Shown here piece by piece: positions 35,206 through 60,540 of a stretch of 64,000 bases of DNA (position 1 is its first letter; the number at the start of each line of letters is the position of its first letter). The position numbers were made by a program, and so were the translations under genes. The DNA lies in NCBI GenBank assembly GCA_021292105.1, contig CM037865.1, positions 71,351,356 through 71,415,355 on the forward strand, in the 5' to 3' direction. Origin of the DNA: Anadara kagoshimensis. Its lineage: Eukaryota; Mollusca; Bivalvia; Arcoida; Arcidae. A model generated the notes under the pieces. That model searched no databases, was not told the DNA's origin, and saw only the letters and a program-made list of their open reading frames with translations.

Positions 35206-37579
35206 ATGTCCGGAGTAGATGGAGAACAAACTTTAAATGGTATACCACTTGAAAGTGAACTCAATAATCACAAAGCAAAACATGATTTAAATTGTGATGA
35301 TAATGAAGTTGCTAGAAACCTTCCTAACAACGAGGGTATACACGACGAACAGACTATTGAACAGCCGAAAATCGACGAGGCTGATCCAGTGAACCCGAAC
35401 GTTAGTATATCTACCGGTGTTGATAAGGGTGAGAATCAAATCAATACAGCACCTTTAATACCGAAAATTGAGATAACTGAAGGTTCTACTTTAAATAGCT
35501 CTTCAGAGGAATTAGATATAACTGGATATTCAGATGAAGGAAAAGTTAAAAATTCAAATGAAAGGAAGGAATTTGATATTTCATTGAATAAAACAGATGA
35601 CGAGCTAGCTAATGAACAGCAGAATGGGAATGTCGCTTCAACGGATGTGCACACAGAACAGTCGGGAATAAACCAAAATAACGATGGTAAGGAGGTTGTC
35701 GTGAAAGACAGCCAGAGAAGTGACACGCCCTTAGATGAAATACCAGAGAAGAAGGAACAAGAACCCGCAATAGAAACGCATAATATTGTACATGTTAGTG
35801 AAGGGAGTGTAGAAAATACTGATAACAAAGAGGCTGGGATTATCGTAAAGAAAGACCAAACTAGTGATACGAAACAGGAAAGTATCCAAAAACAGGAAAA
35901 CCAAGACAATACCGGTGATAAAGGTCACAAAACACAGGTTAGTGAAGATAACATAGAAACCCAAGGCAATACAGGTCACAATACACAGGTCAGTGAAGAT
36001 AACATAGAAACCCAAGGCAATACAGGTCACAATACACAGGTCAGTGAAGAAAATATAGAAAAAAGTGAAAATAAACAATCTACAAGTCATGCTAAACATG
36101 TAACTTTTGAAGACAGTGACAATTATGATTATTTAATTCTGAATCACCAGACCGACGAGGATAAAGAGTTAAATCTAGATACTAAGACAGACTCGCAAAA
36201 TAAATCGTTCGAGGAAGATAAAGATCAGACTTCTCAGTCAGAGGCATCACAATCTTGGCCATCATACAAACCGGAAAGTGACGTACTAGACAAGGGAGAT
36301 TCTAAACCAACCGAGGAAAAAGATATTAGTTCATACTCAGAACCAACAGAAACCTGGCCATCTTATCAGCCAGACAGTGAGCAAGAAAAAAGTATCCAAA
36401 AGAACGAAAGGAAAGATATACAAAGCCCTAACAAAGAACAACCTTCAGAGACAGAATCGTGGCCATCGTATCAACCAGATAGTGAAAACAAAACAAGTGA
36501 TACACAGAAAGAACAACCAAACGTAGAAAATTCAGATTCAAGAAATGATAAAGTAAATAACATTGACTTACAAAATAGTGCCACAGTTGAAAAACAAGTA
36601 GCCCCTGCTGCAACTGCCGATTTACTAGCAGATAAAGGCGAAAAGAACTCGGAATCTGAGGCACTAGACGAAACCTTTCCATCATATGAACCGGAACCGG
36701 AAACAGAGCCAGAACCGGAAGCTGTTCCTGTTAACATTGGTGACGATACTTTAGACGACATTGAACCGATTTCCACTATTGCAGATAATCCTGTTGAGGA
36801 ACCTACCGTTAAACCTGTAGAAAATATGGAAAACGAACCGACAGAGAAATCCGACACAACCAAGTCTGAAGTCGCAGACGACCAGGCACGTGCAGATGAT
36901 TCATTGAAACGAGATGATGATGATGATACAGATCTTGAGACAACAGAAGATCTTAAATCGGAGGAAGTTACAGAAAACAAAGGATCTCAAAATAAAAACG
37001 AGGACGACAATAATGCGAAAGAAACTACTACACCGGAAACAAATGCTCCACCAGCATCTCCGGATCGATCGCCTTCACCTGAAAAAGAAAATAGCGAAAA
37101 AGAGAAAGACAAATCAGAAGGAAAAGACGAGCAACAAAACAATAACGCGCAAACTGAAGAACAGAAACCAGTTGAACAAAACAAAGAAGACGTTAAAAAG
37201 GAGGAATATACTTCACCAGAACCTGTAGAAATCCCCATGGTTCGAAATGTGGATGTGGATAAAGCAGTTCTGACTTTATCGGATCTAGAATCCACCATCA
37301 AATACTTGATGAGTGATATTAAAAATTTGATGGGTGATTACCATACAAGGCTTTCAGCTCAGCCATTATCAGACTTTGTTCTTGATCTTGGTAAATTCAA
37401 AGGAGACTTTGTTTCAGTCAGTGAAGCTTACAAAAAGTGCGAAGGCCTTTCTGTTTTATTGAACAAGTGCCTGAAAGAATTACGTCATGCTACGGATGAT
37501 GTTAATATCCTTATCAACAAAAAATTCCGAGAAGAAGATTTAGCCACCTGGGTAGACAATGAGGAACAGATGGAAGAAG
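35206..37579 (+). CDS. DTHD1: DTHD1-like exon 1 (disordered N-terminal region)
   Basis: 2374 bp, residues 1-791, phase 1 out; donor at 37580. Chosen start is the first in-frame ATG (MSGVDGEQ), preceded by CAAT. Rich in E, D, N, K, S and T. Contains three imperfect tandem copies of a 17-residue unit (NTGHNTQVSEDNIETQG, near nt 35920-36060). Four W/F-PSY motifs centre on residues 351, 384, 419 and 491, followed by an E-P-rich run. The last 120 residues turn hydrophobic and helical (LSDLESTIKYLMSDIKNLM). Confidence 0.85.
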
Positions 37580-43500: not shown

Positions 43501-46500
43501 GATGATACTACCTGTAATTTGCACTCGAGTTTAAAGTCATAATTCCAAAATAATTTTATACCCCCTTAATAAATCACTTCAGTTATGTTAACGTTCAGGC
43601 TAAAATTATGTCATACTTAAAGTACAACGTAATACATATTCATTACCAACTTTATGGAAATGTATATTTAAGTGTTATGTTATTGAAGTCACGTTAGTAA
43701 AAGTGAATGGGTATAAATCTGAAGTACCATTAAATGAGTTAAATAAATACTACGAGAATATTTCAATATAACCCAGGACAATAAGACTTAACGTTAAACA
43801 GTAATTGGTTCTGGTATATACATATCTATGTGTAATTTTAAAATCAGTATAAAAAGTCAAATTAAAGCTTATTTTAGGTAACTTATTATAATTATATTAT
43901 ATAGATATAATCCTTTTCGTCCTATTGGGTTTTATAGGAAATTATTTTTAAAGAATTTTAACCTGTGTAGGGCACAGACATAGTATATTTCGACTTGAAG
44001 TAACTATCTAAATTTTACATATGTAATAAAAAATGCTAATGAAAATTTTACGTAATTAGCATACCTCTGGTGTGTTATCATTTTTATAATGAAAAAACCA
44101 AGGTCTATAAGTCATGAAAAGTTGAAAACTGTTTTGAATTATGAAATTTATTGATTTTTTCAACTTAAAATCTTACCAAAACCCTTTCCAATGGCCATTT
44201 AACTTGCCTTTTTTCTAGTTGATAAAAACGCATTATGTATTCCTTAAATTGGAAACAATATTTTTTCAATCAACGAATTTTAAAATATTTTAAGAAGGTT
44301 TATTTGGATAGGAATTGCAGCAAATGATGTAGAGCGGTGAGTTGCTAATCTCCGACTTGCTTGGAAATGTTCATCTAACTATAGTTTGTCACTCTGAAAT
44401 CTGATGATATTATTATATCGTTCTTGCAATTACCACATGATGGGTTTGGGCTAATTTTTCTTGTATGTCGGCGTAAGTTTATTTTTTTTAAATCACAACA
44501 AACGACAAATTTATTATAAAGAACAAAAAAAAAAAAAAAAAAAAATCAAATATGTGACATGTTTAACCCCTTATTTGGTCCTCGGCAACCTTTATCTAAA
44601 ATACCCCATAAACACACACGTAGTCCAACTTGGTTCCTACGACCAATCTCTCAGTGATTTCAATTATATACTTGAGTTCTATAATGTTTATTCACAATAA
44701 AGAGTATGTATTGATTCAAAACGGAGATAAATATTTGCATATCTAAGATAGAACACTGACATTCAAGAGACAAAATCGATGTCATTACGTTTGGTAAATT
44801 CACATATCCTAATCTACACACAATGTGTTTTATTTTCCCCTTTAATTAAATTCAAAATCAAATACTCATCCCATTAAATTCTTTTATCGCTAGCGAAATA
44901 ATGTAAAACAAACAACGACAATATGGCTAGGCGAGACACGAAGTTTTGATGATCATAAAATGGCGTAATTAAGTTTATATTAAATATAACATTATAGCGA
45001 CAACTAGCCGTACCTTGTATTTTATGTTTATTTGTACCTACGTTATATTATATACAGTACAGACCTGTCAAAAGTTTAACACTAAGCTAACGAACAAGTG
45101 GCGAATCTTCAGCTCATTCATATATGTCACAACAGCTTTTCCACAGCTACTGTCGGCCACTGGCTATTTATATTTCGGTCACTAAACAGCCGACATTCGA
45201 CCCCTCTTCCATGCCGAAGTGTGAATCTTTTGACAGTTCAGTACTGTACCTTTGTGTGAGCAATACTTTATAGCTCTTGTTCCACTTAAAATTATTTGTT
45301 TAAGCTTTATGATAGATTTATGTTTTAACCTTTTCAGACATTTTAATATAAGTTTTGTTAGATAAATTGTGTACAAAGCCGATAAAAGGCAGTTTTCGAT
45401 ATAATAATTTTAAAATACTTTAAATAGCTAATATGTTTTGTTTATGTAGCTAATTTTATAGATTTATCAATCTGTAATTTTATGTTTTAAAATTTTAAAC
45501 AGAATAAGGTGAATTTTATTTCATTATAATTACTAATTTCGCATACTTATAGTAACCACTATGTTCAACCAGTTGAAGGTTTTGTTATGTCTTGAATATG
45601 TAAGAACAAAACCTGACTATCAAGGTCCTCAAAAATATGGCCATCATCACTGTATTGTTGATAAGTATGATATCTCTGTATCAAAAATTACTCTAGATAT
45701 ATTTAACATCCCATAGTTCCTTTCATTCCCAATTTCACGACACATGTGGCGGGTGCAGCTAGCGAAACAGGAGGTGTTTATCCTTCCGATGCACCTGGCC
45801 TCTCTTCCCTGGTGGAAGTTCACATGTTTAACCTAACTAGCCAGCTTCAAAGTTTTATTATCCTATCGGATTGTGATTTGGACATGGTTTTGATGATAAT
45901 CTAGAGAACCATAGGCATATGACTATATAGACCATAATAGGATTTATGAAAATCAGACACCAAAAGGTCCTATAATAGGCAGCACATCATGGTAGCTTCG
46001 ACTTGAACTATTCTATTATCTCGGCGTATAAGATAAATCCCATTTAAACTACAATAAAAGCTAAAGTAGGAAAAAACATCGCACATTCCTTGTTATTGTC
46101 GACTTTAACTTTGCTTACATTCCGTTTGTCATTGAGCTTGATATTTAGTAGAAGTTTGATAATTTGATTTCTTTCTTCCAGATTACTATTTATGAGGTAT
46201 TAGTATTTGTCCATTGATAGATGTTGTATTGTTTCACTATTTTCAGACAAGGATAAACTCAGAGAGGAGCGTATTGCTATAGAAAGATCAGCACTAGCTA
46301 AAGCAAGCGATGCAAGGGCAGCTATCGCTAACGCTACAACAGGCGTCGCCGAATCTAAACTTTTTGCAAGCGAGGCTGAGGTAGAGGCGGCTGAAACAGC
46401 AGCATTGGCTAAACGAGCATGGGAAATAGCAGAAAATGCACGGCGAACTGCAACAGAAGCAAAGATTGCAGCCGAGGAAAAACGAAAAGCAGACGAAGAG

Positions 46501-49500
46501 GCAAGAAAAAGAGCACAAGAACGAGCAAGAATTAGGGAAGAGGAAGATAGAAAGAAGAGGGAAGAGGAGAATAAGGTACTGAGAGAAGAAGCAAAGAAGA
46601 AAGGAACAACATTTGAAGATGAACGACAGCGTGCCGATGAAGAAATAGCTAGAAGAGAAGCTGAACGCAAAAATCCTAAAAACTGGCCTCGTCAAATGTA
46701 AGTGTCTAAAAAGTGGACCGTCAAATGTAAGTGTTTGAAATGGCTTTGTCAATTTTAAGTTTCTGAATTGACCATGTCAAATGAAAGTGTCTAAAACTGG
46801 CCTTGTCGAATGTAAGTGTCTAGAAATTGGCCTTGTCAAATGTAAGTGTCTATAAACTGGCCTTGTCAAATGTTAGTGTCTTATAACTGACATTGTGAAA
46901 TAAAAGTTTCTGAAAACTGGCCTCGTCAAATTTAAGTTTCTGAAAACTGGCCTTGTCAAATGTAAGTGTCTAAAACCGACATTGTCAGTGAGTGATTGTG
47001 TATCAAAAACTGGCCTTGTCAATGATTGTGTAAAGGAAAACTGGTCTTGTCAATGATTGTGTAAAGGAAAACTGGTCTTGTCAATGGTTGTGTATAGGGA
47101 AACTGGCCTTGTCAATGGTTGTGTATAGGGAAACTGGCCTTGTCAATACTGGCGTCGTCAACTGTGTCTAGCTACGTAACATTTTAAAGGTGAATCTTTA
47201 GTGCTGATTGCATTATTGAATGCAATTTTGAGCAATAATTGCTGAAATCAGACAATGTCACTAAATACAGTTTACGTTATTATTACCATACACTTTAATT
47301 AAGCTTTTCTATCCTTACGCTTTTTGTAAAACTACGCAATCCAAATAGCTGGATCAAAAGGGTTTATACGCATTTGTACGTTTCATCTTTGTTATTCCGA
47401 AGAACTGAATATAACTTAACCATGAACAAAATGTTCGGCATCAACAAAACACAAATGATGACAATGTGGGTAGTTCGCATATTTTGCTTACATGCTTATG
47501 GTCTTTACATGGAATTGTACCCAGTAGTTTATCAAGTATTAGCAACATTATCGTAGTTTTAAAGATTCCAGATATTTGACTGACGCTTACCGTACCGGCG
47601 AGTTCTATCCAAGCAGATCATGTAATGTACGAACGTTTATCAGTTCGTTGTTTCCAGGCACTAGGGGCTCTTTCAATATCTCGATAATGATTTCCTCAAT
47701 ATAAGTGTCTTTACTAAAATTCAGATGAATAAATTGTTCATATACCATGCGTTCTTCGAATTTTCTGAAATACATGTAAAAATCGAGCACATGTTATAGG
47801 CATGTATATACTTGTTTCGGACTATTAACGGCAAATATCACGACTTGACGCAAACACTGGATATTATTGAATTCCATTAGATATAGACTTTAGCCATTTC
47901 TCTTATTTCTCCTTTACAGTTATAGTATAGAACCTGGTGACTTTGACCCTGGTATCGGATGTATAATTAGGTCCATCGGTGGATGTCTAAAACGTGACGA
48001 CGTAGAGGTGCGACGGATAGATCAGATGTCCGGTATACTGACACTTATTGAAAACGAAGAACTTGTCAGTAATATATTAGAAATAACTCCAACTGATCCA
48101 GAGAAAAAATTCTCGGTAATTACGACTTAAGTATCGTGGTACTTTTGGATATATATTCATCAACCCTTTAATGGTTGTGTGGTTGATTAATTACACGATA
48201 TATTTTACTTCTTTGGAAAGTGGGAGGTCTTGGGTTTGAACCCCGACTGGGTCTGACCCACGAAAATGAATTACAAAATTAAAGCCAAGGGAACTAATAA
48301 TAGACGAGGTCCCATGCACGGTAGGCATAACACCATAAAGAACCCTGCTTTATATTGCCATTAGCGCAAGACACAGGAATAATTTCTGCACCTTCTCCTA
48401 TAGCTAGCGACGTCTCGATATAAGTGAAATATTCTTGACTGGGACGTTAAACACCATTACTCAACTCAACTCACTCCTTTAGAAGCATTACAGTCGTGCC
48501 TGCAGCAAAATCAAATTGAAAGACAGAGCAGTATATTGGTTTGAATGCATGTTACATATCGGAGTATAGCTGCTTTTGCACCCAGAAGTATCTGGTTTTA
48601 CTGCCTAATACTAATAAAATTTCTATTGTAACATTTGCAGTTTGAAGAGCCATTGTCTATCGGTATACCACATTGTTTTTTGCGTGGAACACAAGGCCGG
48701 GAAGCCATTGTGAAGACTCTGCAGAGTAACGGTAAATGGGTAGAAGTACCAACATCAGATGTACACTTTGAAGATATTAAGGTAACACTAAATACATGTA
48801 GTATAGAGTAGAATAAATGCTCCGACTTTATATTTTATTTTGTTTGAACATGACAAATTCAATCGAATCAAAGCCACGAGATTTTTTTAACCACCTCATT
48901 CGATTTTTATATTTTCACCGTTATCATTCCTTTGACTCTGATCGACTACCATTTAAAATCGCCTTTTTCTTTTATCTTTAATTGGCAGTGTTTATTGACA
49001 GTACAACAAGGAAATGTTAATCTTTGGAATATTAAGTCGATGTTGTAATGCATTGGTAATTAATCAAACAGTTAATGAATCTGTTAATGAAAAGTATCTT
49101 ATGCAAAATATCAACATCAGCAACACAAATGAAAAAGTAAATATTCCTTCAAATTGTATTTTACAACAGAGAAGTATGGAGCTCTCTCCAGTAAGTATCT
49201 GATTTGTTGGTCACATATGAGTGGTTTTTAATTGCGCACACGACTTTGTGAACTGTATAAGCGATTAATTTGCAGCTATGATTTCACGCATGTCCAGACT
49301 CCTGTAACAAATGGAACTTTTTTCTGCCGTTAAATTGAATTTGAATAAACATTGAATTGTCTAGAAATGGCTATAACTTCCATAACTGCCAAGTAAACTG
49401 AATAATGCGCGCTCGCGCGTTATGATTAATTTGCTTTGCACGGCAATGGAAGCTATAAACGTCATTTTAGACAGTTCAATGGTTTTATTTACATTCTACA

Positions 49501-52500
49501 TTTTATGAAAATTTTATTTCGATTTTTTAACCGTAAAATAAAAATTTAACACGCTGTTCTAGATACAATTCCAATCGCTGGGAGAGGCAATCTATGGCGC
49601 TTATAGACATAAGCAAAAATTAGAAACAAGAAGAATGTAAATATCTTATTTATATTCAACTGGAGAAATCCTACCCTGATCTTGTTAATGATTATTACAT
49701 TTAAGACTAAATTATTACTATATATAGTATCAAACAGGAGGCAATAAAGCTTTAGTTCTATATTATGACAATTCTGCTTAACTAAATTTTCCAGAGTTTA
49801 ACATCACATTTTAAATGAAGGTTGCTTTCATATTTGTGATACACGTTGTTGCCACATTTAAAATAAGTATTCATTAAATACATTATTGATTTGGGCACCG
49901 ATACTATAACTTTGACATTTTTGAGATTTTTTATAAGAATTAGTTAAGATAAAATGAGACAGTTCAGTGTGAACACAAAACATGGCTTAATAACTTTACA
50001 TCAATTAGTAATATAAGAAGTAACTTGCATCACGAGTTTGAATTCATGACACATTAATTTATGTTTAAAATGCTACAGCATGACAAACACGCCTGATGTT
50101 ACTGATAATAATATTGAAATGATTCGAAAATATTTGTTGGAGCAAATCCATATTGATTATAACGTTACAATAACGATTGGTACACGTATCTCTTTTTTAA
50201 CAGTATAACATGTCTAAAATTAGTGAAAATATTCTCATATATTCCTTGCTAATTGCATGTTATAAGATTTCATACACAAAATAATAACGATACTCAAACT
50301 GTTTTCCAGTTGGGTCAATATTGCACCCGTAATTAAACCCTTTTTTTCTTTGACTCTATTGGATAAATGCTAATTTTGTTCTTGACAATTCATCAGTGAC
50401 ATTTTGTTCTACACAGGAGCTGAAGTTTGTAGAGATGCGTACCCGTAAGTTCGGAATCTTTGCAGTCATTGCTCGCCTCAAACGTGAAAATTTGTCCTTT
50501 TCTCGAAAAGGAAATAAAGTTGCATCATCGGCTGATCCACGAATTACTTTAACATGTAGACCAGGGATGTTTAAAATCAACGTTAACTTCCATATTGAGG
50601 TAATTCATATACATCTACAAAATGTATATTACGTCACCATACTGTTTGATATTGGTCCACTAAATGACATTGTGCTATTTGTTGTAGATATATATTTATA
50701 TTTATATACTAGAATGGTAGTGCGTTAAAAGATATATTATAGAAATAGAATAGTTTTTCCCTTTTGTTATTGAAAAATGAAAGAATTAGACATTGTGCAC
50801 ATTGTATGATTCGCAAATTCAAAAATTTGAAATACTATTTCGAAAAGTCGAAACTGTTGCGAATAAACATAGCGAAGTAGCTTTTTTTACATATGTCACT
50901 TTACGGGTTGCACAAGTTTTATATATTTTAAACCATTTTATTATTGTCGCCGATATATCAATGTGGAATCGGCACAAAGTGATTTTAGCGTGAAGAGTTT
51001 TATGTGAAAACCGGATTATTTTCGCTTTATTAGTGAAACGCAAATGCGTATTAGCAAAAAATACTTAATTTGAGATAAGTACTGCGATGTACAAACACAT
51101 GTGTACTCGGATATGTTTTCGTAGAGTATGACTATAATTTTTCTCTTGTTTTTTATTTTGATATACGTTAGGTACAAACTGTTGATTCTACAACATTGTC
51201 CGACGTGAAAATCAGAAAACCAGAGGAATTTGCAAATGTAATTACAACAAGTCCTATTCTGCGGTTCCACATAGCCAACAGAAAATTCAACAAACCCATT
51301 ATGATAACAATGCCATTACCTGCTAGTAGCCCGAAACCTAAACGTCCTACTACGGCTGGAATAAACAGGGAGAAGGACGACCAGATGCCAGAAACTAGAG
51401 CACAGACAGCTAGACCAACAACCGCCTTCGTGTCGTCAACAAAAGAGGGTATGTTTAGTTTTTATTTGTTTAAGATTTTGGCCTTTGAAGAATGATAAGA
51501 AGAATAAATATATTTTGAGTCTAAACAAAACATATGTATCTTCTTTATATTGTATACATTCATATGTAAAGGGGCAGAACTCAATTCGAGATATTACAAA
51601 TTGGAGTTCGCTAGAGCGTCATATGATACCATATAACATTATGCAAAATGAATTGATATGAGTAATTTTCCCAGAAAAACGCTGGATCATGAAGAAGCAA
51701 CGCATGACTAGTTCGCTACACTCACCACGCATGAAACATATAAAACCTTATATTATTTTCCATTTTAGATGATGTTGATGAAGAGATACATTTATTGGTA
51801 AAAGGACATGTTGGAGGATGGACAAGATACAAACATTGCTCTGATCCAGTCCAAAAACAAAGATATTGTACATTTGATATACCTGATCCATATGAAAAGT
51901 AAGCCGCATTTATTAAACCCATTTTGTGTCTACCTTTTTTTTAATTCTTTTATCTGAAATTTTGTAATCTAAGTTTTACATGTAAAAGCAGATTCTTTTG
52001 ACCGTTTGAAGTAAGCATTTTCTTCAAGTTGACTCATGTATTAAAAGCTAAACCAATATTAATTAGAATATTTAAATTATAAGTTATTGTTAAGCTAGCG
52101 GAGTATTCGGGCTGTCGAAATTCGAGCATCGTGGTTTATTTACATTAACATAATATGAATTTAGTTGGCACCAGCAAATGACTTCGAAAATTCAGGGTAT
52201 TCGAGATATCGAGTTCGAGCGACTGTAGCGTCAGAGCATACATATAAGCGTTTTATCAATACAATCTATTGTATTTTCTACAGTGATTTTATTCGCCATG
52301 ATGCATTAATTTGATTCATTGGTTTTTAAAATTTCAGGTTTCTGTTACTTCGGATGAAGAAGGGTATGACTGCCGTTCCAATCATAGAGAAAATACCATC
52401 ATTATTAGAAATGTCTCTTAATCATAGAACAATACAATTCTTTCTGAGACAGAAAAATACTTCTCTAAACAACATCAGACTTTCTTGTTCTAATTCAGGG

Positions 52501-54786
52501 AGAACTGAAAAATCCCTGAGAAACCTTGCTGAAGAGGGATATGAAGAAGGTCCCAAAGCAACAAAGGATATCATTGTAAAAGAAGGACAAGTTATACACG
52601 TGCGGTTCAGAGGAAATCTAAAATGTTTAACAGACATCAAAGACTTAAAATTTGTATTTAATACGCATATAAATAGTGGTTTAGAATTCAATGTTATTGA
52701 AATGGACAAATTTGCTCAAAAAAGCTTCCACTGTTATCGAGGATTTGCTAAAATATTTACAATGGTTAAAGTACATAGACAGGTGCCCCCTCAGGATACA
52801 AGTTCTTCCAGTCAACAGAAACCCGTCTATGAGGTCGTGGATGAAGAAGTCTTATTAGCAGAACTTTTAATTAATCTTCCGAAAGTAAGTTATGTGTATG
52901 GTATGTGAAGGTAGTTATATCAGAGGTTTGGTCGATATTGCATGTTTCAGATTTATTGTTTCAACAAAATACAGTCAAAACCGTTTTTAAATGCCACTCA
53001 AGGGAACAAGTAAAAGTGGCCATTATATAAGGTTTAAATTGCCTGAATATAGGATAGTTAAAATGAAATTTTATTGGACTTTAAAAGCAAGTGACCCTAT
53101 ATAGAGGTGACCTTTTTAGATAGGTTTGACTCTATATAGAACTACGGAATTATAAGGATGTTGTTGACTCAGTAGTTGAAGTTTAAATATTCTGCATCAA
53201 TTACGAGTATATAAGTAGAAGAAAAATGTATGGGTCTCAATTTGGAGTGGTCATGTGGTTAGGTGGTTGATTTAGAACCGTGATTCTTCTTTATTGCTGA
53301 AACCTTGATTTGTCGCTGGTATTCGTTTTTAACATGGGTAACATTTTGTTAAATTTCCTAAAACATATTTTTGTAATTGGATGTAAATGACCAGATACCG
53401 TAGTTAGAGACTGATTGATATATATAATAATTACATCCGTCGTTATCAACGTAATAACTGGAAGTAGGTAAAGTTCTCGCTTTTTATACCGGTTCAGTTC
53501 ATTGTAATTATGACAAGTGTCAACTAAAGTTCAGTATTTTTTCCCGTTTTTTGTATGATATTTGGTTACCCTTAACCGTCTGATCAAGATTTCTACAACT
53601 GTAGATGCACATGTAACATAAAATAATCTTTTCATTTTCATTTTCAGCCTGATCCAGAACCGCCACAACCGTTAGCCACTGCCCCTATCAAAATAAAAGA
53701 TGAAGGTAGGTTTGTTTCAAATACACGACCTGTCACACAGGTAACCGTAATGCAAAAATGTTGTTTTTATATTAACTATACGGTGTACTTTTAGATAGAA
53801 AACATAATGTAGAAATTTCTAAGAATAAATAAACGTCTTTCTGATACCATAACAAACTAGCATTGATGTTATTTTACCAAAACTGATATCAGTTGTCCCA
53901 AGGGACTTGCAAATTCTTTTCTTTAACGTATAAAGACGTGCGCATTATTGCAATCAAACTCAATGATACTGTTTGTAAAACGAATTTTAATTTATTTTTG
54001 CAGGCCCTGTTACAGATGATATTTTAGAGTTTGTTGCAACCGAACTTGGAGATGAATGGAAAAGGCTAGCCATGTTTTTAAATCTAAAACGCATGCGTAT
54101 CCAGGCTATATTACGCCAAAACAACAGCAACCCCGATCCCAAAAGGATCCGAATGGACATGTTATTAACATGGGCAAAACGGCTTCCACGTTGTGTGAAT
54201 AAGGTAAGATGACGATTTACCAATTTTTTTTTCAATTTGATTTGGTATAGCATACTTTAACCTTAAGGTGGGGTTAGAGGCTGTCCAAACGAAAACATCG
54301 TTTTTGTTTTGCATTCACGTTAACTAGGAGTTATTGTTCTTTAAATGAAGAAAAGGTAAAACATTATCTTAAAATACATGAATCAACATTAACATCCACA
54401 CACGAGAATACAACTGCAAGCATGTATGCAGTAACTTGACGAACAACATAATAAAAAATAAAGTAATAAAAATAATTACAATAATAAATTGTTTTAAATA
54501 CCGTTAAATGTTTGTGTTACATGTTGTTGTTCTTATGAATGGAACAGCACATAACTGAACAAAATTATACATCGTTAAATCGATTTCATACATACTTATC
54601 CATGTCTAAATCTAAACGCGTATCATACTTTATAGCTAGTAACGATTCCATCTTTAAATCATTTTAATCAAGATTGAACTAATATTGAGAAAATATTGAG
54701 AAAAATAAACTTCTATTTATTTGAAGGTTGAGATATTAGCACATGCCCTTGAAAGTATTGGACGTGCGGATATATCTGAAGTTTGA
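35206..54786 (+). CDS. DTHD1: DTHD1-like protein: disordered N-terminus, helical rod, ZU5-like x2, UPA-like, death domain
   Basis: Eleven exons with GT-AG introns and matching phases give a 4617-nt frame (1538 codons and TGA at 54784). Residues 1-670 are acidic, polar and low in complexity. Residues 670-790 look helical. Exon 2 (about 792-941) is an Ala/Glu/Arg/Lys-rich helix. About 942-1100 is a first ZU5-like region (start IEPGDFDPG, end KFGIFAVIARLK). About 1095-1190 is a second (DPRITLTCRPGMFKINVNF to KFNKPIMITMPLP). About 1208-1420 is UPA-like (NHRTIQFFLRQ, GQVIHVRFRGNLKC). About 1455-1538 is a death domain (GDEWKRLAMFLNL, LLTWAKRL). This order resembles DTHD1 and, more loosely, the PIDD1/UNC5/ankyrin ZU5-UPA-DD group. 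Death domains mediate homotypic protein assembly; the function of DTHD1 is poorly known. No signal peptide or membrane segment is seen, so an intracellular protein is likely. The orthology call is from pattern recognition, not a search. Confidence 0.78.
39649..39851. mobile_element. TA-flanked MITE family, copy 2
   Basis: 203 bp. Starts CAGTACAGACCTGAGGAAAG and ends with the near reverse complement (ACAGGTCTGTACTG), with about 35-bp inverted repeats. TA dinucleotides flank both ends, as expected for Tc1/mariner-type insertion. In DTHD1-like intron 1. Confidence 0.65.
40501..40755. mobile_element. MITE with CCCCGGTT ends, copy 1
   Basis: 255 bp with about 45-bp inverted repeats: CCCCGGTTTCACAATCATTC then CTTAGTTAAGATTTTCCTTA on the left, and the near reverse complement on the right, ending AACCGGGG. 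Confidence 0.65.
41774..42104. mobile_element. 331-bp MITE, TTGATATTTTTCA ends
   Basis: About 55-bp imperfect inverted repeats: left TTGATATTTTTCACTTACCT then GTACCTAGTCGTAAC, right the complement ending GAAAAATATCAA, both including TATGCGCATC/GATGCGCATG. Ends 10 bp before the fold-back element. Confidence 0.6.
42118..43106. mobile_element. 989-bp fold-back element with 400-bp arms and TTAA flanks
   Basis: Left arm 42118-42522 and right arm 42703-43106 are reverse complements at high identity with a loop of about 180 bp. Ends GGGTCATTTAAGTAGG and CCTACTTAGATGACCC. TTAA at 42114-42117 and 43107-43110 is the target duplication typical of piggyBac-type insertion. No coding. As intron RNA of the DTHD1-like gene it could form a long double strand. 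Confidence 0.75.
45055..45246. mobile_element. TA-flanked MITE family, copy 3
   Basis: 192 bp. Starts CAGTACAGACCTGTCAAAAG and ends TTTTGACAGTTCAGTACTG, with TA at both flanks. In DTHD1-like intron 1. Confidence 0.65.
45640..45900 (+). repeat. Penelope-like family 3' fragment in DTHD1-like intron 1
   Basis: GGCCATCATCACTGTATTGT, GCTAGCGAAACAGGAGGTGT and CCTGGTGGAAGTTCACATGT match, in the plus orientation, the 3' region seen at 11085-11440. Confidence 0.55.
46247..46697 (+). CDS. DTHD1: DTHD1-like exon 2 (Ala/Glu/Arg-rich helix)
   Basis: 451 bp, residues 792-941, acceptor TTTTCAG, donor GTAAGT at 46698, phase 1 in and 2 out. Strongly helical; the early part is Ala-rich and the later part is a charged E/R/K rod such as EEEDRKKREEENKVLREE, likely a coiled coil or single alpha-helix. 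The 30 bp at its 3' end, donor included, is the founder unit of the adjoining minisatellite. Confidence 0.85.
46680..47160 (+). repeat. Minisatellite of about 30 bp that includes the exon 2 splice donor
   Basis: Sixteen diverged units begin with the last bases of exon 2. Unit: AACTGGCCTTGTCAAAT, GTAAGTGTCTAAA. A GTAAGT donor in CAAAT/CGAAT context is intact at 46698, 46727, 46812, 46842 and 46962, with GTTAGT at 46872. Later units change to CAATGATTGTGTAAAGGAAA. Use of any donor after the first would read an in-frame TAA at 46699-46701. Confidence 0.8.
47920..48115 (+). CDS. DTHD1: DTHD1-like exon 3 (start of ZU5-like region 1)
   Basis: 196 bp, residues 942-1007, acceptor TTTACAG, donor GTAATT, phase 2 in and 0 out. 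Encodes YSIEPGDFDPGIGCIIRS through ITPTDPEKKFS. Beta-rich and Gly-containing, consistent with the first strands of a ZU5 fold. Confidence 0.8.
48177..48478 (+). mobile_element. SINE family B, copy 4, in DTHD1-like intron 3
   Basis: Plus orientation. tRNA-like start with box B GGGTTTGAACCCCGACTGG, then the reverse complement of the family B body, ending GGGACGTTAAACACCATTAC. Lies between exons 3 and 4. Confidence 0.6.
48641..48781 (+). CDS. DTHD1: DTHD1-like exon 4 (ZU5-like region 1, continued)
   Basis: 141 bp, residues 1008-1054, phase 0 at both ends, acceptor TTTGCAG, donor GTAACA. Encodes FEEPLSIGIPHCFLRG ... NGKWVEVPTSDVHFEDIK; the pattern of a hydrophobic strand followed by G-K-W is typical of ZU5 domains. 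Confidence 0.8.
49002..49190 (+). other. Candidate in-frame cassette exon in the DTHD1-like gene
   Basis: A 189-bp open stretch (63 codons) lies in intron 4, preceded by TTATTGACAG and followed by a consensus donor GTAAGT. Both ends are phase 0, so inclusion keeps the frame. The peptide is Asn-rich (opens YNKEMLIFGILSRCC, ends QRSMELSP). It would split the first ZU5-like region, whose sequence is continuous without it, so it is at best alternative or it is chance. Confidence 0.3.
50417..50599 (+). CDS. DTHD1: DTHD1-like exon 5 (end of ZU5-like 1, start of ZU5-like 2)
   Basis: 183 bp, residues 1055-1115, phase 0 at both ends, acceptor CTACACAG, donor GTAATT. Encodes ELKFVEMRTRKFGIFAVIA, a ZU5 end motif, then a basic linker and DPRITLTCRPGMFKINVNF. 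Confidence 0.82.
51172..51448 (+). CDS. DTHD1: DTHD1-like exon 6 (ZU5-like 2 and linker)
   Basis: 277 bp, residues 1116-1207, phase 0 in and 1 out, acceptor ATACGTTAG, donor GTATGT. Encodes TTSPILRFHIANRKFNKPI, then a Pro/Thr/Ala/Arg-rich linker with the related segments RPTTAGI and RPTTAFV. Confidence 0.82.
51769..51898 (+). CDS. DTHD1: DTHD1-like exon 7 (start of UPA-like region)
   Basis: 130 bp, residues 1208-1250, phase 1 in and 2 out, acceptor CATTTTAG, donor GTAAGC. Encodes DDVDEEIHLLVKGHVGGW and a Cys-containing segment ending DIPDPYEK. Confidence 0.82.
52338..52884 (+). CDS. DTHD1: DTHD1-like exon 8 (UPA-like core)
   Basis: 547 bp, residues 1251-1433, phase 2 in and 0 out, acceptor ATTTCAG, donor GTAAGT. 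Contains FLLLRMKKG, NHRTIQFFLRQKNTSLNNI, EGQVIHVRFRGNLKC and a beta-rich continuation to VHRQVPPQ. The best-conserved-looking block of the protein. Confidence 0.85.
53648..53705 (+). CDS. DTHD1: DTHD1-like exon 9 (proline-rich linker)
   Basis: 58 bp, residues 1434-1452, phase 0 in and 1 out, acceptor TTTTCAG, donor GTAGGT. Encodes PDPEPPQPLATAPIKIKDE, a short flexible link between the UPA-like region and the death domain. Confidence 0.78.
54004..54203 (+). CDS. DTHD1: DTHD1-like exon 10 (death domain, helices 1-4)
   Basis: 200 bp, residues 1453-1519, phase 1 in and 0 out, acceptor TTTTTGCAG, donor GTAAGA. Encodes TDDILEFVATELGDEWKRLA ... MLLTWAKRLPRCVNK. The two Trp positions (GDEW, LLTW) are the usual death-domain landmarks. 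Confidence 0.85.
54727..54786 (+). CDS. DTHD1: DTHD1-like exon 11, coding part (end of first death domain)
   Basis: Acceptor TTTGAAG at 54726. Encodes VEILAHALESIGRADISEV and stops at TGA 54784-54786. The exon runs on to a donor at 54835. One T fewer than expected in the run at 54782-54784 creates this stop; see the separate entry. Confidence 0.78.
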   Translation, partial: VEILAHALESIGRADISEV

Positions 54787-56441
54787 GAGACAGAGATGAA
54801 GAATTTAGACGTGAAAGGGCAAACAGTGCGAGAGGTAATTGTTACCGACATATGTAGTACAAATGCACAGATTATTGTTGGATGGCGGACACAGATTTAA
54901 CCAGTTGCTTCTTTTTGCCCAACTGATATTGCCCAATGTACAAGGACGACTTTCTCAATGACTAACTTCAACTTTGTTTATTTGTTTTTGCCCAAAGTAT
55001 TTATTTAATTATGTAGTAAATTTACCTTCTGCCTCGTACATTTAATTATTTGTGCGAGTTTGTTTGAAATCTAGGAATAATGCTTTAGTTTCAATACAAG
55101 TGTATGCACAGGAAAATACAAGTATTGTAGGACAACTCAAATGAACTATGTAAGAAGAAGATCTCTAACCTATTAGGCTCTACAAATTTTTGATTTTGTA
55201 CACGACTTTAAAAATAAAAGCCATAATTTGACTCTTAAAATGTTTCCGTCAATCTGTTCGTCTTGTCAAGTAACGAATTGTTATGTTACCTCATTGAACT
55301 TTGTTTCTTAGCACATTGGTTGGATTTGTAATTTGATAAAAGCTGAGGACTACTACAGTAGGGTTATATAAATTGAAGGAAGGTTAATGGAAAAATCTTG
55401 AAAACAATGTCGCACTCTGTCTTATTTTTTATGTCTTTTTTGTTTTCTCTTTCTTTCCAGATTCTTTTCTCCGTCGAGCTTTTATAAAAGTGGCACAAAA
55501 CCCATATGCTGTCAAAGACTGGAAAGCCATTGCAAAAAACTCGGAGTGTCTGAAGGTGACCTGGTAGAAATTGATAAAACGAAACCATCAATTCAGGAAA
55601 AGTGTTTTCATAGTCTGAAGAAATGGCAAACTGAAGCAGGTATTCAGCAACATTGCCAACTCTGACAGCTAAGCTAAAAGTCTTCAAGCATCGACAACTT
55701 GCAAGTAAGTCAATCAAGCTAGAAAGTTTGGCATTTTGTTTCCATAGAATATTACTCTATATGATATTATAGGTTTTGTTGTATTTGTAACCCTTCCGGA
55801 GCACCCGGCCTCACTTTCCTGGTGAAGTTCACGTGTCTAACCTTTGTAGTTCCAAAGTTTTTACTTCTGGATTGTGATTCGGACATGAATTAGTATGTTT
55901 GTTTTTGATTACGATGAAAATACTTGAAGTATTTTATTCTGTTCGAAAGTTCATGTGTTTGACTGAGCTTTCCAGTTTCCAAAGATTCTGTTTGCTTTTG
56001 GGATAGTGAATTGAATACGGTTTCTTTTTTATTTATTTTAGACAAATAAGCTCAATTTCACTTCACAGTTCGTATCGAACCTAAAATGAAAAACCACGAG
56101 CAGTTGTTTTCATTTAGTTAACGAGCTGCAACATGTTTCTTTACAAGAATTCAATGTACACAGCCTAAGTAAAACATTTTATAATTGGCTTTAAAATACA
56201 TTAGCATATTTTTAATGTAACACGAAAGTTAAGTGCAACAGAAACAGTCCAACACTTCACATTACAAAAACAATTGTAGAAGTTTTTTTTAAAGAAATTT
56301 ACAAAATTTTGATTGAAAATTTATTTTGATGTATTTAAATTCTGGACAATACGGTTTATTTGACCTCTTCAACATGAGTTATGATAATACTTGAAATTTT
56401 ATCTTATTTATATTACAGGAGAAATAGAAACGATTGGTTAG
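54787..56441 (+). pseudogene. Broken extension of the DTHD1-like gene: second death domain with three frameshifts
   Basis: Beyond the TGA, exon 11 continues to 54834, an exon follows at 55461-55704 (acceptor TTTCCAG, donor GTAAGT), and a last exon starts at 56419. In a shifted frame, exon 11 ends in an Arg/Glu-rich stretch (FRRERANSAR) that splices in phase to a death-domain-like sequence: LRRAFIKVAQNPYAVKDWK, then GVSEGDLVEIDKTKPSIQ, then CFHSLKKWQTEAG, then LPTLTAKLKVFKHRQL. The last exon gives REIETIG and a stop at 56439-56441. The frame is lost three times by one base each: near 54783 (T run), 55534-55542 (A/C run) and 55647-55653 (CAACA). As read, the second domain is not translated. Either real decay or consensus error in the assembly. 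Confidence 0.7.
55785..55925 (+). repeat. Penelope-like family 3' fragment in the last DTHD1-like intron
   Basis: CCCTTCCGGAGCACCCGGCC and TCACGTGTCTAACC match the family 3' region. Lies between the broken death-domain exon and the last exon. Confidence 0.5.
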
Positions 56442-56646
56442 GGGACAGAATCAGCGTATGCTGAGAGCAAGTAAAGGGGGAGAATAACTATTCAAATAAT
56501 GACCTGCAGTACTGATGGAGGATTTTATTGAGGGATAGTTAAGACGAAATCTCTACTAAACGTTAATTGATTTTTATATCTCAGACTTTAAAACAATAAT
56601 ATAATGTATATTGGTGATGTATATAATTGTATATTAACTGTAGTTC

Positions 56647-56652
56647 AATAAA
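56647..56652 (+). promoter_or_regulatory. Polyadenylation signal for the DTHD1-like gene
   Basis: AATAAA lies about 200 bp after the ancestral stop in the last exon, in a TTCAATAAAAGTAG context. It is the first clear signal downstream of the last acceptor at 56418. Confidence 0.55.
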
Positions 56653-56669
56653 AGTAGTGTTTTGTGTAA

Positions 56670-58039
56670 AATGTACCGTGATCCTCATGTTGTCTGTGAT
56701 CTAGAATTAATTGTGAATCTATTGTCTGTGATAAGAAAGTATTGCTCAGTCAAAGGTAACAAAATTGATTTTTCACAATTTGCTCCAATTATCACTATTA
56801 ATGAGGAATTGTATTCTGAAACGGACATCTAGTTTTAAGCTGTATAAAATTAAATTGGATTATATTTTTTCTACAAAATTTAGAGATATTTATTAGCAGG
56901 CAGTCATGGAGTATTAGGTTTTTTATGATAAGCTGTTATTATACAACGTCATCTGACAGAATGTTTAATTTTATGGCACAATAAATCAGGTAAATCATAT
57001 TGATTTTCATTACTAAATGGATACTAATGTATCGAGTTAGATCAAATTATTTCAGTAAACAAAATAAATATTGTTAAAACTTTGTTAAAAAACAAATGGA
57101 TAGACAATAAAAAGTTATTTGTAGCTGATCATTAAAACATGTCATAACCGATGTAACCACGGAACAACAAACACGTTAAACAAACAGACAAAATGTTACA
57201 AGTATATGAACAATTGATTATAAATCCAGATAATTTTTGCCGTTTAGTGGGTTGTTAAAACGCATCCCTTGATATAATATTAATGTCCCTTACTTTGATC
57301 AGTTTTCTATCAAACTATAATATTTGTTATGTATGTAAATGATCTGTGCTATATCTGTGATATATGATATATATTGTCACGAGACCAGTGTCTGTGATAC
57401 GTATTTATGAATTGTTTTATTGTTAATTGAACACCTTAAGTACACGTCTCTTAAATAAAAACCAACCAACTATTATTATGGAAAATAATTTCCAATAAAC
57501 ACCAGTTAATAATTTTTTTTTATACAAATTGTGCGTCCAACTTCACAAACCTCAATGCATCGTTGTAACTAAATTAAATCGGATTTTCGTAAAGCCAACT
57601 CTGTCACTGCCTCTGTATTTGTGATTACTTGTCGCACATCATTGTACTTCCCCATTGTTTTGTTTACGTTAGATTATAAGTATATGCTTCAGTAATGCAA
57701 TGATTACTATTGTAATGTGTATCCAATTATTATGTAATGTAATAGTGGAAATATTTCCAAAAATCTCGATATTTATTTGTTATTTTCAATTATTTATTCA
57801 ATAAAGTATTTTTCTTAATAGTTTTTTGTATTTATAGGTTTTTTTCCGATACCAACAAAAGCGATATAAAATTATCTTCTACGCTTGTTTTGGTAATGAC
57901 TGTTTGAGATACAGCCAATGGTACAAATTATATCAAGACTTCTGTTGAACATAGGATAAAGTCTATATTAGTGATATAGTACTCTAACATTGCATCTGAT
58001 GTTAAATCTTGGTTACATAATATTATTTTGACACATATT
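56670..58039. other. Downstream of the DTHD1-like gene, no gene seen
   Basis: AT-rich. Contains an inverted fragment of repeat family C at 56745-56832. No coding signal recognised. Confidence 0.5.
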
Positions 58040-58445
58040 GGTAATGCATATCAATAAAACAAACATACCAATCCTTATCTAAATCAAAATACAAAAGCAA
58101 AGTAAAAACTGAACACTGCCAAATTAAGTTAAACTCGTGAACCCCCACTAGTAAAGTTAGACCACGTGCTCCGTAATTGCGGAAATCAATTACAAAACCT
58201 GTTCAAACATTTGATTACCAAAACGAAACTGTTCGCTAGCGAACGGTAATATATGTCCAGTAAGCAAATCGTTAAATACTTTTTGATTATACATATCAAA
58301 AACAACTATACAAATTCATGTCCGAACCACAACCCAGAATCATAGTTAAAACTTTAAATCGGGTTAAAGGTACATGAAATTATGGGGGGGGGGGGGGCTA
58401 AATATATCCAGGGCAATCTTGGACACAGAGACATCAAACTTAATA
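58040..58445 (-). repeat. Penelope-like family 3' fragment
   Basis: Minus orientation; CAAACATACCAATCCTTATC, ACTGCCAAATTAAGTTAAAC and ATATATCCAGGGCAATCTTG match the family blocks, with an unrelated 100-150 bp and a poly-G run (58385-58397) between. Confidence 0.5.
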
Positions 58446-59381
58446 AAAATACTCATTATTTGTGAGTATGACAACATACATCAAGGTAGTTAAAGATAGA
58501 ACAACAAAATTGGGTAAAATATACATGATAGTTTCAGGTATTTGTAATATGATAATGAAGGTATTAGAAACACTTATAGAACAAAATACAATCTGTAATA
58601 TGTTATTAAGCATCAATATTACACTTTTCGAAGATTGTCTGTTCTATAATTGAACACTTTGTTGTAATGTGACAATAAGCCATGTATGCCATGCAGATTT
58701 GAGAATTTTTACAAGATGGGAGTTCTGTGAAATTGTCTAAATATTACTACGACTTAATAAATGTCAAAATGTACATACTGGTTGAGTCTACTTGTTAATT
58801 GTATAGTTTATTTGTTTTGGGATTGTGGTTTGAACATGGATTTGCATGTTTGTTTTTTATTGGTACTCCGGGCAAGAATTTCAGTTTCCTAACTCAAATG
58901 CTATTGTAATTTTATACCAATTGTAGCTTGGCTTTATTTTACCTTAGCATAGGACAAAGAAATCTCACTGAGTTAAAATGTTCAGTGTGACGTTAACGCT
59001 ACTTCATATCAGTAATGGAAAATGGAAAATTGATGTCTCTGTATTCAAAATTGCCCTGAATATACTAGACGTTCTCTGTCTTCATGTTCCTTTTATTATC
59101 AATTAAATTGATTTCACACCTTGTAACTATATTTTGCTAGGCAGAAGATGCTTATTCTTATTAAAAAATAATTTGAAATAAAAAGACATCAAATAGTGGT
59201 TTTTATTATTGTTTTTTTTTGTCAAATTATTTTTAAAATTGGTGCAGTATGACAAATTTCTACGTGTGTTGCCGCTCGTAAAGAGCGCCCTGCAGTCGCC
59301 GGATAGATTTATGAATGAACCCGTAGGAAATTATGAATGAGTAAGTAGTTCCTTGGTTGTAAGTATTCCTCCGCTATTCGC
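58446..59381. other. No gene seen
   Basis: One short fragment of the Penelope-like 3' region (58805-58860, plus) in otherwise unremarkable AT-rich DNA. Confidence 0.4.
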
Positions 59382-59578
59382 TGTACATCGAAAGGATAAC
59401 GGATAAGTGCCGAATCGATAGTTAACCTCGTTATCTATATCTCGACAGCTTTTCGGCAGCTGCTAGCTATCTCTCGTCAGTTTTCAGTCACTAGCTTTTC
59501 ATATCCCAGTCACTCAGTGGCCGCTATTTCGAGTCATTTTCGTAAGCTCAGTGTTAAACTTTCGACAGGTCTGTGCTG
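59382..59578. mobile_element. TA-flanked MITE family, copy 4 (left end decayed)
   Basis: The right end TTCGACAGGTCTGTGCTG followed by TA is clear; the core GGATAAGTGCCGAATCG matches copy 1. The left inverted repeat is barely recognisable. Confidence 0.5.
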
Positions 59579-60029
59579 TATGTGCATTATTACATCTCTG
59601 AATCGTTCTGAGTAATTTATACATTTTTAAAAAGGGTTTCTTGCAACATAATGGGTACAGACTATGACAGTGTGCGATTTTAAAAGTGCTTCTTTTAAAA
59701 GCCATTTTTATATAGCTGTATTCCATCTGAGATAAATTTGCTAAAACGAGTAATAACCTTTGGTCTATTGATTTATTTATTGATTAAATGAGGGACGTTT
59801 AATGTCCCAGTCAAGATAATAACTTATTTTTTAAACGTAATATCACAATCCTCGCCATGTTCAAATATATTCGTATTACCTTAAAAGCTTACGATTTTAG
59901 TCGTGGACGTTCGGAAGAGTTTTGTAACAGAGAACAATCGGTATCCAGACACAGACGAAGATATCATGTAGGCGTTTCAAAATCTCGGGCCTAAGTTTAC
60001 TCGTTTCAGGTGACAAGTCGGACACTATA

Positions 60030-60540
60030 GTGCCTTGGTACTCTCAGTTACTTTTTTTCTTGCAACCCAGACATCGTCACGATCTAAAAAACTTACAAAT
60101 CGCACGGTAATGCTCTTCGTATCTTTTACACAACCTGGAAGCCTATAGATTGCCTGAAATTTTAATTATAAAAACCTCAGTAAAAGTTCATGAACCGTTT
60201 CTCGAGGAAATTCTCTAAGCACACCATGAATACCTTGTACATCCAGATTCATCTTTTGCCCGCACATTTCTAAACTAAATGTTTCTCGCCTGTTACGTTT
60301 TCCTGGATCTTACTCTCGAGGTACTACAGGTACCACATTTTCATTTATTTCCTGGAATAACCCTCGTAGATACATCAGAATTTTCATGTTTAGACTTGTC
60401 GACCTCTGATTTAACAGATTGCATCTCGGATTCCATATGCAAATGCAGCAGCATTAAACAGTCCGACATGACCTTTCCAGCATGCAGATTTTGTACCCTT
60501 TTCTCTGTCTCGGAATTAATTTTTTACTGTCTAATTATTC
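60030..60540 (-). pseudogene. Decayed LINE ORF1-like fragment
   Basis: On the minus strand, KSITVRFVSFLDRDDVWVAR followed by KKVTES resembles the RNA-binding region of L1-type ORF1 proteins (vRF..y.dRd.vW.ark). Upstream, in shifted frames, MESEMQSVKSEVDKSKHENS looks like the coiled-coil part and FPRETVHELL a linker. Several stops and frameshifts. The plus-strand open frame at 60279-60545 is its shadow. Confidence 0.4.

Follow-up and report, generated by a model that had tools for sequence, protein, structure and literature searches.

A bivalve gene with two unlike tandem death domains and frame breaks that very probably arose in the assembled sequence

The ankyrins, UNC5 and PIDD1 are proteins in which ZU5 and UPA domains are combined with a death domain. 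For human DTHD1, the accessible portion of one study names a single construct, 'DTHD1_DD' (PMC8564539), and an excerpt of another reports the protein in wild-type motile cilia, and its absence or strong reduction in the cilia of patients (PMC12310455). Here we analyze a gene of the bivalve Anadara kagoshimensis located in a stretch of 64,000 nucleotides (assembly GCA_021292105.1, contig CM037865.1, here C9; C9:71351356–71415355), which is called the window throughout and is numbered from its first letter. The predicted product of this gene is a ZU5/UPA-like protein with two unlike C-terminal death domains, DD1 and DD2. Read literally, the sequence looks like a truncated gene in the course of losing a signalling domain and would be annotated accordingly, because a stop codon follows DD1 and the frame of DD2 is interrupted. 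Comparison with sister copies on the same contig leads us to consider it very highly probable that these frame breaks are errors of the assembled sequence and not mutations, and that the gene belongs to a multicopy family and carries both death domains.

Gene model and the two death domains

The rebuilt gene consists of 11 exons, from the ATG at 35206 to the TGA at 54784–54786, and encodes 1538 residues with matching splice phases; the N-terminal half of the predicted protein is acidic and of low complexity. Two further exons lie past the TGA. The exons, all on the plus strand, are listed with the evidence for each; the other copies referred to are described in the next section.

35206–37579, plus strand: exon 1, acidic low-complexity N-terminal part starting at the ATG (open frame, splice donor, phase)
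46247–46697 and 47920–48115, plus strand: exons 2 and 3, charged region (splice sites, phases)
48641–48781, plus strand: exon 4 (splice sites, phase 0; visible in the three-frame translation)
50417–50599 and 51172–51448, plus strand: exons 5 and 6, ZU5-like (PDB sequence match to ankyrin-3 and ankyrin-2)
51769–51898, plus strand: exon 7, three bases lost with the frame still open (130 bases versus 133 in five of five other copies compared)
52338–52884, plus strand: exon 8, UPA-like (weak second ankyrin-3 stretch; copies on C9)
53648–53705, plus strand: exon 9, proline-rich linker (rebuilt gene model)
54004–54203, plus strand: exon 10, most of DD1 (Pfam Death, 34.4 bits jointly with the start of exon 11)
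54727–54834, plus strand: exon 11, end of DD1, break 1 (54783) creating the TGA at 54784–54786, and linker (108 bases versus 109 in seven of seven copies)
55461–55704, plus strand: exon 12, DD2 with breaks 2 and 3 (55533 and 55641) (244 bases versus 246 in six of seven copies)
56419–56441, plus strand: exon 13, final coding bases and TAG (AG acceptor in eight of eight aligned copies)

Both domains exceed the curated cut-off of the Pfam Death family (PF00531, 22.6 bits). DD1 scored 34.4 bits, and DD2, when the frame pieces of 55461–55704 and 56419–56441 were joined with X, scored 31.9 bits over positions 4–85 of the 86-position profile. The score depended on the pieces chosen: it was 20.2 bits when the last piece was replaced by the unshifted frame, 20.6 bits when it was replaced by the product of an earlier splice, and 21.3 bits when the first piece was omitted, and neither frame gave a Pfam Death match when the second break was ignored. 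Codon scores also favoured the DD2 frames in exon 12, where none of 2309 overlapping non-coding placements reached the observed sum. In exon 11 directly past the TGA, two frames were nearly tied (8.9 and 6.9), so that, before the comparison with sister copies, splice phase was the basis for break 1. In three of these copies with an open frame, DD2 scored 49.3, 49.7 and 53.1 bits. An earlier note on this DNA had proposed that the exons past the TGA encode a second death domain; these scores confirm that proposal, and DD2 is, judging from its predicted translation, a real death domain. A few alternative donors and acceptors that might bypass the breaks were judged by eye, and none gave an open frame through DD2.

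The two domains stand in tandem and are mutually unlike. No BLASTP alignment between them was obtained up to an E-value of 100, and in a PDB sequence search the nearest solved relatives were THOC1 and PIDD/LRDD for DD1, and FADD and RIPK1 for DD2, the DD2 matches also including designed proteins that are not death domains. DD2 therefore does not appear to be a fresh copy of DD1.

The frame breaks compared with sister copies

The genome of the same animal (1.115 Gb in 36 contigs) was searched with a 351-base query over exon 12. All 14 matches fell on C9, in clusters near 66.33–66.67 and 71.40–71.55 Mb. Eight of them, one being the window itself, were taken as loci; two others (71.437 and 71.445 Mb) were read by BLAST, and the remaining four were left out. 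Among the seven other aligned copies, L002 lies at C9:66.667–66.668 Mb, L006 at 71.51 Mb and L007 at 66.38 Mb. In longer alignments, c1 denotes C9:66.66–66.71 Mb, c2 denotes C9:66.58 Mb and c3 is the third copy in a four-way alignment with the window. About 45 of the 64 kb of the window align, in inverted order and at 82–98% identity per block, to C9:66,706,752–66,658,160, which is located 4.7 Mb away on the same contig. The identity is very uneven, large stretches have no partner, and the likeness persists over the adjoining 10 kb beyond the window. L006 and L007 differ at only 4 of 2199 bases. The window holds one member of a local multicopy family, several near-identical copies of which are found on this chromosome-scale contig.

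When the copies were aligned, the three breaks appeared as gap columns at 54783, 55533 and 55641. At each of them all seven other copies carry one more base than the window, in agreement with the earlier note, which had explained each loss of frame by one missing base; its position for the first break (54783) was exact, and those for the other two (55540 and 55650) were not. The extra base is C in five copies and T in two at break 1, A in three and G in four at break 2, and A in one and G in six at break 3. Over the 351 bases of exons 11 and 12 aligned between the window and L002, the two are free of substitutions and differ by three one-base gaps. In BLAST gap counts, the copy at 71.44 Mb likewise has a single gap opening in exon 11, and its two exon 12 pieces have one apiece. 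The seventh copy for exon 12, L008, has both extra bases plus a separate 13-base deletion.

DD2 is open to the TAG in five of the seven copies (L002, L003, L004, L006 and L007), and the sister copies encode 106 more residues and both death domains. In c2, exons 5–13 form one unbroken frame of 591 residues with two Pfam Death stretches; its exons 1–4 were not found within the stretch compared. The same frame is obtained from c3 when the exons are cut out, with the splice sites between exons 6 and 7 not intact. L002 presents a mirror image of the window: its DD2 is open, and its DD1 exon is hit by several small insertions and deletions. Exons 11–13 were less divergent than the introns in all seven sister-copy pairs (p 2e-5 to 0.02; the pairs share members and are not independent), which suggests some constraint on the predicted coding sequence. 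Farther upstream, exon 1 is 97.3% identical to c1 with one 6-base gap, exons 2 and 3 are indel-free relative to c1, and exon 8 is full-length and open at four places on C9, including the window, and full-length with two stops at a fifth; a sixth place has it divided into two pieces and carrying one stop.

Exon 7 contains a lesion that the open frame had concealed. The bases lost there were aligned as three gap openings by BLAST, and as one 2-base and one 1-base gap by MAFFT; the frame stays open, and 15 residues stand where five copies encode 16 others. A gene model can thus remain open although a 15-residue stretch in it is wrong. The earlier note had stated that the upstream coding sequence has no such break, and the exon 7 losses refute this. 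Decay of DD2 had been favoured at first, since the three losses fall within 312 of 4923 coding bases (p 2.5e-4), and it had also seemed to be backed by six tandem arrays without a deleted base; both arguments were overturned by the sister copies, and the losses in exon 7 invalidate the clustering p-value.

Private deletions and their probable explanation

Events found in only one copy (private events) were counted in the four-way alignment of the window, c1, c2 and c3, which spans 51.9–60.25 kb. For the window this gave 43 private deletions of 1–2 bases, 3 insertions and 60 substitutions, and the deletions are concentrated in two patches:

54751–57750, no strand: patch of putatively poor consensus, with 29 private deletions of 1–2 bases, 0 insertions and 11 private substitutions
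51900–52250, no strand: second, smaller patch adjoining exon 7, with 8 private deletions, 0 insertions and 3 substitutions

Between them, at 52251–54750, there are 4 deletions, 1 insertion and 26 substitutions. The larger patch includes the last part of the gene, introns as well as exons, continues for about 1 kb beyond it, and ends near 57.75 kb. Relative to c1, deletions of 1–2 bases reach 10.6/kb at 54–56 kb and 10.0/kb at 56–58 kb, versus 0–6/kb in the other aligned bins (4.0 at 50–52 kb and 5.5 at 52–54 kb); relative to c2 and c3, small deletions at 54–58 kb amount to 8.5–10/kb. The other copies have patches of their own: c3 has 16 private deletions (of its 25 small ones) with 0 insertions and 1 substitution at 57751–60250, and c1 is damaged in its DD1 exon (201 bases, 6 gap openings). 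Poor patches therefore differ in place between copies. A decaying domain is expected to be damaged only in sequence freed from selection and to carry more substitutions than indels, and the window has neither property; it has the private, one-sided and bounded patch, affecting coding and non-coding sequence alike, that is expected of a local consensus error.

The position of the losses within the alignment is also informative. Of the 37 window-private 1-base deletions, 24 fall on columns that differ among the other three copies, compared with 2.8% of all columns (p 1e-28); within 54676–57800 the count is 16 of 24, versus 3.3%. The private 1-base deletions of c3 show the same tendency (15 of 21, versus 3.5%). 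Breaks 2 and 3 both sit on columns that vary among c1–c3. Since the aligner may prefer to open gaps on variable columns, each loss was widened to its whole homopolymer run and the background was taken inside runs; 26 of the 37 widened losses still touch a variable column, versus 8.6–11.7% for random places in runs (p 1.4e-16). We are not aware of a mutational process that would delete bases where other copies differ from one another. A consensus derived from mixed reads could place losses on exactly such sites.

We therefore regard it as probable that the losses were caused by a consensus made from mixed reads. According to this explanation, the consensus of the approximately 3-kb patch would have been built from reads belonging to at least two copies or haplotypes, and positions at which these differ would often have lost a base; exons 11 and 12 hold three of the losses and exon 7 another three. 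Either paralogues or haplotypes may have been mixed. The animal's real copy at this locus presumably has an open frame, and its DD2 would be functional. One of the two readings in the earlier note had assumed local consensus errors and a true protein with two death domains and some 105 additional residues; the 106 further residues and both domains of the sister copies support it strongly.

Several observations weigh against attributing the breaks to the assembly. The analysis rests on assembled sequence, and the true bases at the locus were not seen in reads. The column of break 1 is C throughout c1–c3, and becomes variable only through the T of L006 and L007; the link to variable columns is weak in c1 (2 of 7 private 1-base deletions, versus 2.2%, p 0.01), and the damaged patch of c1 includes insertions. 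Across 4999 bases in six tandem arrays elsewhere in the window, 7 bases are inserted and none is deleted; the assembly is thus sound in other places, and any consensus error would have to be confined to certain stretches. The seventh of the arrays, which were chosen from 24 listed rows, is ragged, and its 369 bases show 11 inserted bases and 5 deleted ones. In the family itself, L005 has two in-frame stops in exons 12–13, before the end, and L008 has its 13-base deletion in the DD2 exon, which as read from these copies is either real decay or further error. Finally, L003 and L007 differ by 7 non-synonymous and 5 synonymous changes over the 378-base frame, so that strong constraint on the protein is not shown.

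Real decay was the other reading of the earlier note: the first loss would have introduced a stop behind DD1, after which DD2, no longer of use, would have gathered two more. DD1 before the stop is complete enough to score 34.4 bits, members of the family are damaged in the same region (the two stops of L005 and the deletion of L008) and the bases compared are those of the assembly, all of which this account can claim. It is opposed by the excess of deletions, which spans introns and extends beyond the gene to about 57.75 kb, by the lack of accompanying substitutions (none relative to L002 in the 351 exon bases aligned), by the enrichment of the private losses on columns that differ between copies, and by comparable losses in exon 7, ahead of the stop. 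This evidence makes decay of DD2 in the window most improbable. The probability of finding no stop under neutral decay, 0.13–0.51 depending on the assumed substitution-to-indel ratio, does not discriminate, and the homopolymer length spectrum near the gene was uninformative. Long-read errors in homopolymers without any mixing of copies would be another form of assembly error, not exclusive with a mixed consensus, and the earlier note had placed all three losses in homopolymers. Part of the losses agree with this, as 25 of the 37 private 1-base deletions fall in runs of at least two in c1, and the c1 patch in the DD1 exon has both insertions and deletions; the bases at the breaks themselves are not simply homopolymer units, 12 of the 37 lost bases are single letters in c1, the widened losses touch variable columns far more often than random places in runs do, and runs of 21 G and 21 A survive in the window. 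Because the break 1 column does not vary among c1–c3, plain homopolymer error becomes slightly likelier, and we still hold it to be unlikely.

A consensus made from mixed reads would also be compatible with the whole window being a false second placement of the other haplotype of C9:66.66–66.71 Mb, a proposal for and against which the evidence appears to us evenly balanced. The inverted alignment of about 45 of the 64 kb, its continuation outside the window and the near-identity of L006 (71.51 Mb) and L007 (66.38 Mb) speak for it; the very uneven identity, the large partnerless stretches and the several further copies inside each cluster speak against it. Considering that each cluster holds several copies, true duplication must also have taken place. 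More tentatively, the family may have multiplied recently as a local group of ZU5/UPA-like genes with two unlike tandem death domains, L005 and L008 truly losing the second; we consider this possible, though rather less likely than not to hold in full.

In our judgement the breakage is very probably no real feature of the gene; the second domain itself is real. In duplicated or highly heterozygous regions, a consensus may drop bases where copies differ and so mimic a neat pseudogene. Comparing sister copies, and asking whether the losses sit on variable columns, offers a remedy.

Other sequences in the window and relation to known proteins

Elsewhere in the window, a 22-base tandem array of 78 copies at 6401–8121 is not a gene; since the 22-base unit is not divisible by 3, each of the three minus frames is open for more than 620 codons, and much the same peptide is read in all of them. 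An open frame of 240 residues at 11317–12036 on the minus strand gave a weak reverse transcriptase match (E 0.01, below cut-off). An Rfam scan of the window detected two tRNAs only.

Exon 8 and its neighbours have more distant relatives in the genome. At C12:36.728–36.732 Mb (L032), a UPA-like part with 31% identity over part of exon 8 is accompanied by a DD1 whose intron sits at the corresponding position and by a weak match resembling exon 11 (E 0.73). A search of about 16 kb past that match yielded no DD2, which is not proof of its absence. A cluster of 15 weak exon 8 matches (22–33% identity) at C19:47.78–48.43 Mb perhaps represents other ZU5/UPA genes. Exon 8 found no relative in the viral contigs or the other genome contigs searched. 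For tandem death domains in molluscs, no such title occurred among the matches listed, where the sole paper matching the phrase concerned an engineered FADD.

The name DTHD1 is a label given by the earlier note, which we retain as an assumption; no search made here returned a DTHD1 sequence. A ZU5-like part with a death domain would fit that protein; the gene may be an orthologue of vertebrate DTHD1, and L032 on C12 could equally be the DTHD1 orthologue. Should the gene be a relative of human DTHD1, a fair guess by analogy would be a ciliary scaffold with two docking domains: the ZU5/UPA part may form the scaffold proper, and each death domain may be a docking site of its own, perhaps in motile cilia. 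In number of domains the two differ, human DTHD1 being represented in the partial source by the one 'DTHD1_DD' construct (PMC8564539), whereas the window gene has two predicted death domains.

The ZU5/UPA-like character of the protein was seen in a PDB sequence search with a 616-residue query, in which ankyrin-3 and ankyrin-2 resembled exons 5–8 with E-values of 7e-10 and 1.5e-8, respectively. The match is strongest in the ZU5-like part, and the second, UPA-like stretch is weak (i-Evalue 0.19 with ankyrin-3). The Pfam ZU5 profile gave no match, even when exons 4–8 were searched together; exon 4 may be ZU5-like as well. With the ankyrins, UNC5 and PIDD1 the gene shares the sequence match to ankyrin-2 and ankyrin-3 and the C-terminal position of its death domains. 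It differs from them in that no ankyrin repeats or membrane part are seen in the gene model, and in that the predicted protein has a long acidic N-terminus and two death domains.

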